The notes below the pieces were generated by a model. The model had not been told where the DNA came from and did not search any database. It worked only from the letters and a program-made list of their open reading frames with translations. Positions 40,851 to 46,160 of a stretch of DNA of 64,000 bases are shown in pieces. The first letter of the stretch is position 1. Each line of letters starts with the position of its first letter. This stretch comes from Methanothrix sp. (GTDB lineage: Archaea > Halobacteriota > Methanosarcinia > Methanotrichales > Methanotrichaceae), in NCBI GenBank assembly GCA_026394555.1, contig JAPKXZ010000066.1:1-64000 (forward strand), given 5' to 3'. The translations under genes and the position numbers were made by a program.

Positions 40851-43800
40851 CTACTCTTGCCATTCCGACAATTTTTGCTGCACTTTTTCAGCATATGGGC
40901 TTTCGATTTGCTTGAAAATCCTAAGTGCCGCCTTTGCATGACCGATCGCCTCAGGCCGATGGTCTAGCTTTTCAAGCACAAGGCTCATGTTGAATCGGGC
41001 ATCGCCTTCTCCCCGGAGGTATTCGATCTTCCAGGCGATCTCTAACGATCGTTCGTAATAATCGATGGCTTTGCGAGTCTCGTCCAAGTCAGCGAAGACT
41101 TTGCCAAGGTTACATAGAACTTCGCACTCATTCTTTCGGTACTCGATCTTGCGAACAATCGCAAGCGATTGCTCATAGTATTCTATTGCCTTGTTTGTCT
41201 CCCCTAAGACCGCATAGGCTTTTCCGAAATTGCATAGATTTTCTCCTTCAATCCATGGGTCCTCGATCTCGCGGCTGATAGCCAGCGCCTGATCGTAATA
41301 TTCGATGGCCTTGCGAGTCTCGCCAAGATCAACGTAGGCTTCGCCCAGGTTGCCCAGGTCAGCTCCTTCGCCCCTTCGGTCGCCTATCTCGTATGAGATG
41401 GCAAGAGCTTGCTCGTGGTATTCGATGGCCTTGCGTACCTCGCCCAGATTAGCATAGGCACCGCCCAGGTTGCCCAAAGCACTTCCTTCCCCCCGTCTGT
41501 TGCCGATCTCGCGGCTGATGGCCAGCGCCATATCGAGGTACTCGATAGCCTTGCGTACCTCGCCCAGATTAGCATAGGCACCGCCCAGGTTGCCCAAAGC
41601 ACTTCCTTCGCCCCGTCTGTTGCCGATCTCGCGGCTGATGGCCAGCGCCATATCGAGGTACTCGATAGCCTTGCGCACCTCGCCCAGATAGATGTAAGCA
41701 TCGCTCAGATTGCTTAGGTCAATTCCTTCGTCCCTTCGGTCGCAGATTTCACGGCTGATAATCAGTGCCAGATCGAAGTACTCGATGGCCTTGCGGGCGT
41801 CGCCCAGATCAGCATAGGCACCGCCCAAGTTGCCCAAAACGGTTCCTTCGCCCAGTCGGTCGCCTATCTCGCGACTGATGGCCAGTGCCTGATCATAATA
41901 TTCGATGGCCTTGCGTACATTGCCCAGATTTGCATAGGCACCGCCCAGGTTGCCCAAAGCACTTCCTTCGCCCGATCGGTCGCGGATCTCGCAGCTGATG
42001 GCCAGCGCCTGATCATAATATTCGATGGCCTTGCGGGCATTGCCCAGATTAGCATAGGCACTGCCCAGGTTGCCCAAAACGGTTCCTTCGCCCAGTCGGT
42101 TGCAGATCTCACGATTGATGGCCAACGCCTGATCATAATATTCGATGGCCTTGCGAGCATCGCCCAGATCGGAGTAGGAATTGGCCATACTCGTTAGAAT
42201 GGCGCCTTCTTGTGCTGGTTTATTTGATCGCCTCGCAGCGCACAACGAAACATCAAGCCAACGAATTAGACTGCATGGATGCAATCGCAATGAAAGGATA
42301 CTCGCCGAATATGCATAACTAATGCAGAGGGAGGCTGCATTCACATTTGTCTTGGCATTTTTCTCAACCCACGTCTGCCCGGCTTGAATATTCGCCAACT
42401 CTCGATCGAGGATTTCCAGCCCAAGAATAGTGTTGTCTCCACCTTTTTCATAAAGATCATGAGCTTTAGAAAGAACTTTCAGGTAACGCACGAAATAGCG
42501 TTGCAGGGCCATGGCATGTGCGGCTTCGCCATCCTCTTTCAGCAGACTTTTAGCTGCGAAGATTCGTGCCAGATCGTGTAAACGATATCGACTATTGCGT
42601 TCGTAGAAATCAACCAGGCTCCAGCGCACTAATTTGCTCAATCTTTTATGGCCCTTATCCTTGCAGAGAAATTCTTCTGCATTGGCATCGAAATCGGCAG
42701 GAAAGATCGAAAGCAGCCGGAAAACACGTGCTTCATCTGGTTTAAGGCGACGATAGCTTAGGTTGAAGCTAGCCTCAACATCAAGATCAACACCTTCCCC
42801 ACCAATTCGCTCAAGTCTTGTCCGTTCGATGCGCAATTCTTTTAGGTATTCAGCCAATAAGAGGTCATGCTCGTTAGCTAACAGGCTACTCGCTGCCCGC
42901 AATGCCAATGGAAGGTGGCCACAAAGTCTGGCCAGCTCCTCTGCATGGTCACCAATTCTACTGGCGATCTTGAGCAGTAGGGCGCATGCATCGGAAGGCT
43001 GCATAACATTGAGGTCCTTTTCCTTCAATCCCGGCAGGGTGAATTTCTCGCGCGAAGTCACGATTAGGCCACATGAAGAGGGGGGAATCAATGGTCGAAC
43101 TTGATCATCATTCGCCGCATTGTCAAGCAATATCAGAACTCTCTTGTTGTGCAACTTTGAGCGATATGATCCACTCAGCTCAGACTCACTTAATGGCAAT
43201 CGGGCATCAGTGTCGTATGCGTGAATGACTTGTGCCATGGCCCCGGCAGCTGTCAGAGGCTCATCGCTTGTTCCATTCATATCAACCAAGATTTGACCAT
43301 CCGGATAACGATCGACCAATTTCTCAGCCAACTTAAACGCCAAGGCGGTCTTTCCAATTCCACCCATGCCGCGAAGGCCGGTGATGGTTGCACCCTGATT
43401 GCTCGCGCCTTGATTAAAGTGATCGAGTAGATCCGTTAGATCATCATCACGACCAGTGAAGTCCGCTGGTGGTGGAGGAATCTGATGGGGAATTTGAGAG
43501 CTGGAAGCTTCGCTTGGCGGCGTTTTAATAGGAATATCTATCGCATCTTCTTGTGAACAGTCAGCAGGATCAATGGGGGCAGAAATAAATTTAGGAATGA
43601 TAAAAACAAACATTCCATTTGGTGGGTGCGAATCAATGTCTTCTCTCCATCTATTCAATGAGTCACTCCAGCAACGCAAGAAAACGACACATCGTCCACT
43701 ATCAAAGTCCAGATGAACAAAATTATATGCGTTACTGTAACGCAAGTCATCGATGTAACGACGATAGTAGGAAGCTCCCGCAGGAATTATGACACAATCT

Positions 43801-44579
43801 CCTATCGTACTCTTAATCACAGAAACTTGGGGCTTATGCTGGTGACCACGGAGAATGAAATCAGTTTCCCTCATAAGGCGCGATTCAACCTTATTACGAT
43901 CGAACTCTGCTAACCATTCAAATGGATGATGGAGAATTGCGATTCTAACATCGGCTTTAGAGATTTGCTTCAGAGATCTATGAATCTGTGGTTCGCCCAC
44001 AAGAACATATCTCTCATCATCTATCTTGTCTGTTGAATCTAGATGGCGCCCACACATCCAAGCAGAGTTGAGTCCAAGAAGGGCTATCGTCTTGTTATCT
44101 ATTGGCAATATGCGAACATTTGCGTAATCAGGTTTGTCCTGACCAGTGTAGGTATTTACAAAGTCAGAGAATGCATGAAATGGTCCAAGGAGGATCTCTC
44201 TCTTTCGTTTGTCCTCAAGCCATTTCTGTACCTCGATATTGGAACTAAGAGGCTTTGAAAGCACGGGAGGAAGGTCTTTTAGATCATCTCGGTTCAGATC
44301 GTGATTTCCTGGTACGATGAAAAGCCTGTCAGGGCTTAATCCTCCTGTAGCTTTCAAAATATGTTCGAATAATTCTTCCTTGGCTGCTTGGTACTCTTCC
44401 GGTTTCGCACTATTGGCAACATCACCGCTGAAAATGATAAAATCTATCTTAGCTAGATCGGGACTGATGGCTTCTCTTTTTTCCAAATCCTCCAACAGTT
44501 TGTCCCGCACTACTTCGCGATCAAATTCTTTGCTCCCCTGATGCCAATCAGAAAGATGAAGCCAAGTCAGTCCCGTCAT
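40851..44579 (-). CDS. STAND protein: metallophosphoesterase, NB-ARC ATPase, 11 TPRs (candidate defence protein)
   Basis: 1242 residues. N-terminal calcineurin-like phosphoesterase (1-330) keeps all metal ligands: D11-x-H13, GD53, GNHD 91-94, HH 217-218, GHQH 245-248. A linker rich in Pro (350-375) leads to an NB-ARC ATPase: Walker A GMGGIGKT (404-411), Walker B LILLDNA with Asp486, and RxL-type SREKFTLPGL. A winged-helix region follows, then 11 TPRs of 40 residues from about 790 (unit: GNLGGAYANLGEVRKAIEYLD). Two adjacent units are identical. STAND proteins oligomerise on ligand recognition and switch on the effector; here that would be a nuclease or nucleotide hydrolase. Divergent from the AbiEi-like gene. 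Confidence 0.9.
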   Translation of the reverse strand: MTGLTWLHLSDWHQGSKEFDREVVRDKLLEDLEKREAISPDLAKIDFIIFSGDVANSAKPEEYQAAKEELFEHILKATGGLSPDRLFIVPGNHDLNRDDLKDLPPVLSKPLSSNIEVQKWLEDKRKREILLGPFHAFSDFVNTYTGQDKPDYANVRILPIDNKTIALLGLNSAWMCGRHLDSTDKIDDERYVLVGEPQIHRSLKQISKADVRIAILHHPFEWLAEFDRNKVESRLMRETDFILRGHQHKPQVSVIKSTIGDCVIIPAGASYYRRYIDDLRYSNAYNFVHLDFDSGRCVVFLRCWSDSLNRWREDIDSHPPNGMFVFIIPKFISAPIDPADCSQEDAIDIPIKTPPSEASSSQIPHQIPPPPADFTGRDDDLTDLLDHFNQGASNQGATITGLRGMGGIGKTALAFKLAEKLVDRYPDGQILVDMNGTSDEPLTAAGAMAQVIHAYDTDARLPLSESELSGSYRSKLHNKRVLILLDNAANDDQVRPLIPPSSCGLIVTSREKFTLPGLKEKDLNVMQPSDACALLLKIASRIGDHAEELARLCGHLPLALRAASSLLANEHDLLLAEYLKELRIERTRLERIGGEGVDLDVEASFNLSYRRLKPDEARVFRLLSIFPADFDANAEEFLCKDKGHKRLSKLVRWSLVDFYERNSRYRLHDLARIFAAKSLLKEDGEAAHAMALQRYFVRYLKVLSKAHDLYEKGGDNTILGLEILDRELANIQAGQTWVEKNAKTNVNAASLCISYAYSASILSLRLHPCSLIRWLDVSLCAARRSNKPAQEGAILTSMANSYSDLGDARKAIEYYDQALAINREICNRLGEGTVLGNLGSAYANLGNARKAIEYYDQALAISCEIRDRSGEGSALGNLGGAYANLGNVRKAIEYYDQALAISREIGDRLGEGTVLGNLGGAYADLGDARKAIEYFDLALIISREICDRRDEGIDLSNLSDAYIYLGEVRKAIEYLDMALAISREIGNRRGEGSALGNLGGAYANLGEVRKAIEYLDMALAISREIGNRRGEGSALGNLGGAYANLGEVRKAIEYHEQALAISYEIGDRRGEGADLGNLGEAYVDLGETRKAIEYYDQALAISREIEDPWIEGENLCNFGKAYAVLGETNKAIEYYEQSLAIVRKIEYRKNECEVLCNLGKVFADLDETRKAIDYYERSLEIAWKIEYLRGEGDARFNMSLVLEKLDHRPEAIGHAKAALRIFKQIESPYAEKVQQKLSEWQE
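41461..41700 (-). repeat. Recent 120-bp tandem duplication within the TPR coding region
   Basis: 41461-41580 and 41581-41700 differ at only a few positions and encode identical TPR units. The flanking units share the 120-bp period with more divergence. It shows recent unit copying in the sensor part of the STAND gene. Confidence 0.9.
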
Positions 44580-44759
44580 TCTTCCCTCATTGATTGAAGA
44601 TTGTGGCGGAGTAGATATTACTTCCTACTGGTTGGAGAATCTCTTCCACCTTATCTTTATTCCATTTCTCCACGATAACTCTGAAATTCCATGAGAAGGA
44701 CCTCTTGTGCTTATTAGACCTGGGCATTCCTGTCACAGATGACAAACAAAAAGCATATC

Positions 44760-44852
44760 TATCACAGATACCTTTATTATCATATCACAAAAAACTGATA
44801 CCACATATCACTGATACATTTATAAACATATCAGTAGATAATGATATGACAC
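44760..44852 (+). promoter_or_regulatory. Four 23-bp-spaced TATCAC direct repeats and TATA box upstream of the AbiEi-like gene
   Basis: TATCAC begins at 44760, 44783 and 44806, and TATCAG at 44829, exactly 23 bp apart; each unit also holds a GATA. A TTTATAAA box at 44819-44826 lies within the third unit, 27-34 nt before the ATG at 44853, so the message is probably leaderless and a protein on the repeats would cover the promoter. A weaker TGTCACAGATGACA lies at 44731. Likely operators of the downstream winged-helix protein; an iteron-like role is also conceivable. Confidence 0.7.
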
Positions 44853-45875
44853 ATGAAGACAATCTCACCTTACGACCCAGAGCTAATCAGTTTGCTACGC
44901 ACACAGCTTGGATTCAGTAACAGCGCCGTAATAAGGCAGGAGAGTACATTCCGGGATTCCTACCCCATTTTGTTTGACCAGATCATTGAAGACGGCACCA
45001 AAACGTACATAGTCGAACTAAAACGGGTCGTTCGCCTCGATTCACTCTCCCAGCTCGGTTTTCTCAAGCTGCTCTTGAAAGATAGCGCCTTTCGTACCTC
45101 CGATATCGAATTCATCATGGCAGGAAAACGGATAACACCGGAAGCTAAAGACGCCGCAGAAAAGACCGGCATTCAATTCATCAAGCTGCCTGCTGATTTG
45201 AACCTGGAAGAGGGCCACGGCAAGCCCAGCACCATACCCGTGAAACTCACATCCCCCAAGTCCTGGCAGGTTATCTCGCACCTCCTCAAGATGAAGGAGG
45301 CTTCCATCCGGCAGCTTTCAATTGAATCCGGGGTCTCATATGGCTGGAGCCATGCAACCGCAAAGGCTCTTATTTCAAAAGGGATCGCATCAGACGCAGG
45401 AGGCCGTCTAAGGATCGTTGATATCAACAAGCTCATCAACGGCATCGCATGGGAACGCCCCTTCGAGAGGCTCTTTGCCCAGGAGATTAAGATAGCTGCC
45501 AAGAACGCCATTGTGCTTGCCAAAGAAATTTGCCTTGTATGCGATGAGCAGCAAATTGCCTGTGCTTTTACCAGCTTCACCGCAGGAGAAATTTACACAG
45601 GCTACCGCGCAAGGCACGATTCGGTGTACCTGTATCTTGATAAGAAAAACATCTCCGAGCTTGCCGAAATGTTTGACGTGCGGACCGAAGGAGAAATCGC
45701 GGTACGAATCTATGCTCCAGATCGCGATGTGTTCAAGGATCGCAGGACATTCTCTGTCGAGGGAGTTTGGCTCGCCTCACCGGCAATGGTCCTGCTTGAT
45801 TGTGCAGGCCAGGGATATGCCGGCCGCGACCTCACACAAAAACTGGTGGAAATCTATGACCAATTGTGGCACTAA
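44853..45875 (+). CDS. AbiEi-like antitoxin/regulator with possible PD-(D/E)XK N-terminus
   Basis: 340 residues. Residues 1-115 may be a restriction-endonuclease-like fold: FDQII followed by TYIVELKRVV, an E-x-K motif. A winged helix-turn-helix follows (about 140-195: IRQLSIESGVSYGWSHATAKALISKGI). The C-terminal 140 residues resemble the AbiEi/type IV antitoxin domain, ending VWLASPAMVLLDCAGQGYAGRDLTQKL. No AbiEii toxin follows. It probably represses itself through the 23-bp repeats. Stands within the island bounded by UPF0146 3'-end copies. The domain naming is by eye. Confidence 0.65.
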   Translation: MKTISPYDPELISLLRTQLGFSNSAVIRQESTFRDSYPILFDQIIEDGTKTYIVELKRVVRLDSLSQLGFLKLLLKDSAFRTSDIEFIMAGKRITPEAKDAAEKTGIQFIKLPADLNLEEGHGKPSTIPVKLTSPKSWQVISHLLKMKEASIRQLSIESGVSYGWSHATAKALISKGIASDAGGRLRIVDINKLINGIAWERPFERLFAQEIKIAAKNAIVLAKEICLVCDEQQIACAFTSFTAGEIYTGYRARHDSVYLYLDKKNISELAEMFDVRTEGEIAVRIYAPDRDVFKDRRTFSVEGVWLASPAMVLLDCAGQGYAGRDLTQKLVEIYDQLWH

Positions 45876-45882
45876 CCGATTT

Positions 45883-46010
45883 CTCACGCGAAGCCGCGAA
45901 GACGCGAAGGCTAATAAACACGATCGCATGCATTGGACGAAAAATAGTAACAAATCAATTATGGTCAGGAATTTATTTCATGAACTTCGCGGCTTCGCGC
46001 CTTCGCGTGA
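45883..46010. repeat. Inverted-repeat element of CGCGAAG units
   Basis: TCACGCGAAGCCGCGAAGACGCGAAGG at the left has a reverse-complement partner at 45985-46010, with about 75 nt between. The unit CGCGAAG recurs every 8-9 nt. It begins right after the AbiEi-like stop codon. Possible MITE-like or recombination element; related motif at 20340-20376. Confidence 0.75.
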
Positions 46011-46160
46011 AACAGTATTTTGTGCCAAGCTGCAAATGGTGCAAGAAAAATAGAATCAAAGCTCTACCAACACGGAATCACGAAGAGCCAATTTTTCTCG
46101 CAGCCCAGCATTTCTGGAATGCTGCCAACTCTGCCGCCTCTTATCGTAGTAGCACCGCTA

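Follow-up and report, generated by a model that had tools for sequence, protein, structure and literature searches.

The repeat array ahead of an AbiEi-like regulator gene of Methanothrix sp. is, by sequence comparison, very probably the autoregulatory operator of that regulator, within what would be a type IV-like (AbiE/MenAT-like) toxin-antitoxin operon of methanogenic archaea. The operator unit accompanies the regulator and its nucleotidyltransferase (NTase) partner across the phylum. The window analysed here, 64,000 nucleotides of contig JAPKXZ010000066.1 (assembly GCA_026394555.1), presents a real, strongly conserved and probably autoregulatory operator whose regulator has lost its partner. 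The literature searched yielded little about archaeal type IV toxin-antitoxin operators; the present one is conserved nearly letter for letter across distantly related methanogens. Because of that sameness, and because it encloses a TATA box, the operator predicts binding sites for a protein family that has no Pfam model of its own. A preliminary description of this DNA had also seen a regulatory array over the TATA box of an AbiEi-like gene, and that much stands; its further proposals, that the elements are direct repeats and that the gene may once have been part of a replicon, find no support.

Structure of the repeat array

As the preliminary description had noted, TATCA starts at 44760, 44783, 44806 and 44829, at spacings of 23, 23 and 23 bp. 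Eight TATCA or TGATA half-sites fall within about 90 bp, where 0.3 would be expected per 120 bp at the window's own rate, and any other 100-bp stretch of the 64-kb window holds at most three. None of 5000 dinucleotide shuffles produced four equally spaced TATCA motifs, and the self-match of the array at lag 46 exceeded that of all 2000 shuffles. Tandem Repeats Finder reported a degenerate 23-bp array, and a repeat finder two 46-bp copies (76%).

Direct repeats had been thought to set the array apart from AbiEi binding sites, but every TATCA in it is the left arm of an inverted repeat, and AbiEi-type operators are likewise sets of 23-bp inverted repeats. The composite unit, present twice, is made of the 11-bp palindrome TATCACTGATA, 12 bp, and an 18-bp interrupted palindrome of the form TATCA-N8-TGATA (Table 1). 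The two units of 11-bp and 18-bp palindromes together span 87 bp, and the last palindrome stops 6 bp short of the ATG at 44853. The palindrome-like TGTCACAGATGACA (44731-44744) was rejected as part of the operator, as the whole of 44731-44759 is outside the conserved unit.

The 12-bp gap of the proximal unit holds the TATA-like box TTTATAAA, which places the box inside the array as earlier claimed, and TATA-like bases are kept in the proximal consensus across homologues. Archaeal TATA boxes stand at a usual spacing from the transcription start, and by this spacing transcription would begin at about 44848-44851, almost at the ATG. With a start there, the proximal 11-bp palindrome would occupy the BRE position and the 18-bp palindrome would lie between the TATA box and the start. 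The distal unit has the weaker consensus (46.9 bits versus 65.5 bits for the proximal) and looks auxiliary. The best reading of this anatomy is that the array would serve as an autorepression operator spanning BRE, TATA box and start site.

Table 1. Features of the operator, regulator gene and NTase remnant in the window
Feature	Position	Strand	Basis
Distal operator unit: TATCACAGATA (44760-44770, imperfect palindrome), spacer CCTTTATTATCA, TATCACAAAAAACTGATA (44783-44800)	44760..44800	+	Sequence; homologue conservation
Proximal operator unit: TATCACTGATA (44806-44816), TATA-box spacer, TATCAGTAGATAATGATA (44829-44846)	44806..44846	+	Sequence; homologue conservation
TATA-like box TTTATAAA, flanked by the two proximal palindromes	44819..44826	+	Sequence; proximal consensus
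Gene for the 340-aa regulator, comprising a NucS-like nuclease fold (1-111), a winged helix (135-188) and an alpha/beta C-terminal domain (190-338)	44853..45875	+	ORF; fold; 35-member alignment
Predicted operator-reading winged helix, in which S151, R153 and SYGW (162-165) are invariant	45255..45416	+	Fold model; alignment
NTase gene-start remnant ATGACCAATT, rest missing	45856..45865	+	Alignable DNA of intact relatives stops at 45865
Repeat segment with imperfect 43-nt inverted arms, beginning where the NTase gene breaks off	45867..46027	.	Repeat analysis

The array sits between divergent genes in the window. The gene facing the regulator (40851-44579, minus strand) encodes a 1242-aa protein with a calcineurin-like phosphoesterase, NB-ARC and TPR repeats, and carries a 120-bp DNA repeat in 7.6 copies (41264-42169). 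The protein has partial similarity, below cut-off, to PADLOC PDC-S60 and NCBIfam DS8 (candidate anti-phage), and the gene is possibly a STAND-type defence gene.

Conservation and decay of the operator

Homologues of the regulator were counted in 36 of 393 genomes searched, those in Methanothrix being close and those in Methanoregula, Methanolinea, Methanocalculus and other members of the phylum more distant. The preliminary description had named absence of the repeats from homologues as a result that would refute it, and that refutation fails: TATCA[CG]TGATA was found within 150 bp upstream of all 39 inspected homologues (36 examined plus L133-L135). Upstream of five divergent relatives without the SYGW helix (L129-L132, and L136 of G106) no half-sites were found (0/5). 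For distant homologues the operator is the longest, and in some the sole, stretch of DNA still aligning with the window.

The proximal unit begins 44-51 bp 5' of the start codon in each of the 36 homologues measured. Of 80 scored positions, 68 have a within-unit step of 23 bp and the others one of 22 or 24 bp, figures that are approximate, the 80 taking in some low-scoring overlaps. Between genuine units the step is 42-43 bp in many genomes, 45-47 bp in Methanothrix and its nearest relatives, and 56-58 bp in Methanomicrobiales. The perfect 23-bp comb of the window results from a unit step that happens to equal 46, and it is confined to some Methanothrix lineages because the within-unit step is conserved and the between-unit step is not. 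Four homologues have a single operator unit. In G258 (L135 796-935) the operator upstream of the regulator has been amplified to four units in tandem, repeating every 43 bp. A further homologue (L134, G068:C1:1620000-1623500) has its operator-regulator-NTase cassette placed, as judged by eye, between apparent type I restriction specificity and modification subunit genes.

Searched across the 393 genomes, the exact core pattern gave 35 matches in 26 genomes, 28 of them at the regulator, and the reversed-pattern control gave no match. It matches the array alone in the window's own genome, where a DNA search found no second copy of the array. A scan of the same genome for a regulon with TATCACTGATANNNTTTAT (up to 3 mismatches) returned 38 matches versus 21 in the reversed control; these say little because the pattern is shifted by one base relative to the array, and the array itself scores 3 mismatches.

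The remaining seven of the 35 matches are not at this regulator. In two of them (G159 and G142) the operator is joined to the final 33 NTase codons (E 2e-13 and 1e-12), and in another (G335), a deletion scar, to sequence that is found beyond the pair in Methanocalculus. At G388, G400:26736 and G040:73252 little is left except the operator. Downstream of the operator at G040:104735 (L128 1501-3027) another pair is encoded: a double-HTH protein of 305 aa with a DUF6036 nucleotidyltransferase. By marking deletion scars, the operator shows the decay route of such modules. The HTH/DUF6036 pair (G040:C1:104735) is located 2 kb upstream of the main pair of that genome.

The regulator protein

S151, R153 and the SYGW motif are identical in 35 of 35 regulators. 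An AlphaFold model built from nine sequences has modest confidence (pLDDT about 68). The N-terminal approximately 110 residues match the NucS/EndoMS fold (PDB 2vld, 5gkj; E about 1e-5), and the window protein has each of the NucS-type catalytic residues D42 (34/35 members), E55 (30/35) and K57 (22/35). A 196-aa winged-helix/C-terminal protein that adjoins NTase-like sequence in G106 aligns co-linearly with residues 133-331, which suggests, at the level of sequence, a two-domain regulator to which a nuclease-fold domain was added.

The winged helix and C-terminal domain resemble AbiEi in layout; direct membership of the regulator in AbiEi is not established. The AbiEi_1 profile matched 2 of 35 members (best E 0.15), the 196-aa protein of G106 has no AbiEi match in Pfam either, and AbiEi was absent from the top 50 folds matched by the regulator model. 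The regulator gave no significant sequence or fold match to solved AbiEi, and profile searches against PDB sequences gave no match. A PF09407 search in the class also returned nothing, which is uninformative as its control failed too. A PADLOC match of the winged-helix region to PDC-M05A (E 0.0034) was not adopted because the NTases match no PDC-M05 model and because M05 has been described as an NTase plus a HEPN protein (PMC12988326).

The coding sequence of the regulator still looks constrained. Its dN/dS is about 0.2, a value that includes time before the NTase was lost, and the window's own branch carries 35 synonymous versus 28 non-synonymous changes, part of which may predate the loss. 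Among the divergent relatives, four solitary paralogues of the regulator (L129-L132) have the recognition helix SYPW in place of SYGW and are without the operator; an NTase beside them was not seen, and two of the four have a glutamine-amidotransferase-like gene downstream. These are possibly domesticated regulators.

Loss of the partner nucleotidyltransferase

The regulator gene is followed in nearly all homologues by an NTase gene (about 250 aa) that overlaps it by 14 nt; this two-gene layout, regulator first, occurs in most homologues, and the window copy is without the NTase. Pfam AbiEii (PF08843) was matched by 12 of 27 members of the NTase family (best 2.9e-5). Comparison of motifs I-IV with those in PMC3985639 identified hGG-x13-DID, KLxAxxxR and KDxxD in relatives, with the motif II arginine absent, and the NTase model was nearest to the MenT1 toxin (8an5_B, E 3.9e-3).

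Homology of the window to intact relatives ends about 10 nt into the NTase gene (45865), next to a repeat segment whose arms end in TGGCAC/GTGCCA and whose CTTCGCG arm recurs at over 30 genomic positions. The segment supplants the usual stop of the regulator and adds two codons. No NTase was found elsewhere in the 96%-complete genome, so that the window regulator is solitary: its partner has been cut to about 10 bp and is not replaced from another locus. An intact regulator with a broken or absent NTase was found in six genomes, that of the window together with G048, G031, G064, G278 and G296, and the reverse, a frameshifted regulator with an intact NTase, once, in a Methanoregula assembly (L027). 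Six versus one is an asymmetry that fits toxin-antitoxin decay, though the numbers are small.

Proposed mechanism and alternative explanations

The regulator, probably as dimers, would use its invariant SIRQ...VSYGW winged helix to bind the palindromes, and once bound would exclude TBP/TFB and RNA polymerase from the promoter; the distal unit may add affinity or cooperativity. Repression, as opposed to activation, is suggested by the geometry of the sites, and toxicity of the NTase by homology. With the NTase lost beside the repeat segment, regulator and operator in the window would form a solitary, presumably self-repressing unit; our guess is that anti-addiction or a newly acquired regulatory role keeps it in place.

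The preliminary description had likened the array to plasmid iterons and raised the thought that the gene was once part of a replicon; the repeats would then be what is left of a plasmid or viral replication origin. The exact 23-bp period of the four TATCA motifs and the patchy distribution of the cassette would agree with such an origin, which is nevertheless highly improbable, because it fails on anatomy, spacing and distribution alike: its elements are inverted and enclose a TATA box, and the units are separated by 42-58 bp, differing between genomes. No rep gene lies nearby, no homologue was found in 72,556 plasmid records or in viral contigs, and many copies reside in megabase chromosomal contigs, always ahead of the regulator or of scars.

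An unlikely, if less remote, alternative is that another protein, either a global regulator or the regulator of the divergent gene, reads the operator, the downstream protein being a mere target. Direct binding of regulator to operator is a prediction from sequence, the array of the window stands between divergent genes, and one operator, that in G040, precedes a different HTH-NTase pair, all of which would suit a second reader. Against it, exact core matches are nearly confined to the regulator gene and deletion scars, the operator and the SYGW helix are kept together and lost together, and the divergent neighbour is not conserved, since homology to close relatives begins at about the operator. 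Slightly less probable again is that the protein activates its own promoter, or that it works mainly through the nuclease-fold domain as a DNA-processing enzyme recruited to the array. The NucS-like N-terminal fold, in which 34/35 members keep D42 and 30/35 keep E55, speaks for a role of this kind, whereas the lysine of the ExK motif is present in only 22/35, and the palindromes overlap both the BRE position and the region where transcription is predicted to begin, which is the usual geometry of repression.

Autorepression by the downstream regulator remains the preferred reading. A bolder extension of it, which we consider doubtful, is that type IV toxin-antitoxin systems have an archaeal branch whose AbiEi-like antitoxin is fused to a NucS-like nuclease-fold domain; this domain would sense foreign or damaged DNA and so bring about release of the nearly invariant operator, and with it the NTase; regulator and operator of the window might then be a domesticated or anti-addiction unit.

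Comparison with known systems

AbiEi of Streptococcus agalactiae binds two 23-bp inverted repeats over its own promoter and represses it (PMC3985639). The archaeal modules share with AbiE the layout of a winged-helix plus C-terminal-domain regulator placed upstream of a pol-beta-type NTase in one operon, and inverted repeats over the promoter. The archaeal regulator differs in its N-terminal NucS-like fold and in having no significant AbiEi match, and its operator in sequence, palindrome lengths and TATA/BRE context. The archaeal NTase has hGG-x13-DhD where AbiEii has x15, and is without the motif II arginine; the window copy is in addition without the NTase.

The closest solved fold to the homologues' NTase is MenT1 of MenAT1 (PDB 8an5), a weak match (E 3.9e-3). 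NucS/EndoMS (PDB 2vld, 5gkj) shares the N-terminal fold of the regulator, in which the catalytic lysine is not conserved (22/35) and the domain is fused to a winged helix and C-terminal domain.

For Rv2827c-Rv2826c of Mycobacterium tuberculosis (PMC7319586), four tandem repeat elements likewise lie upstream of the start codon, over the promoter and before a regulator-NTase pair. Rv2827c binds these as four tandem 23-bp inverted repeats over 131 bp, whereas the archaeal array has two units of 11-bp and 18-bp palindromes over 87 bp. By analogy of layout, the array would work like the operators of AbiEi and Rv2827c, with a sequence and geometry of its own.
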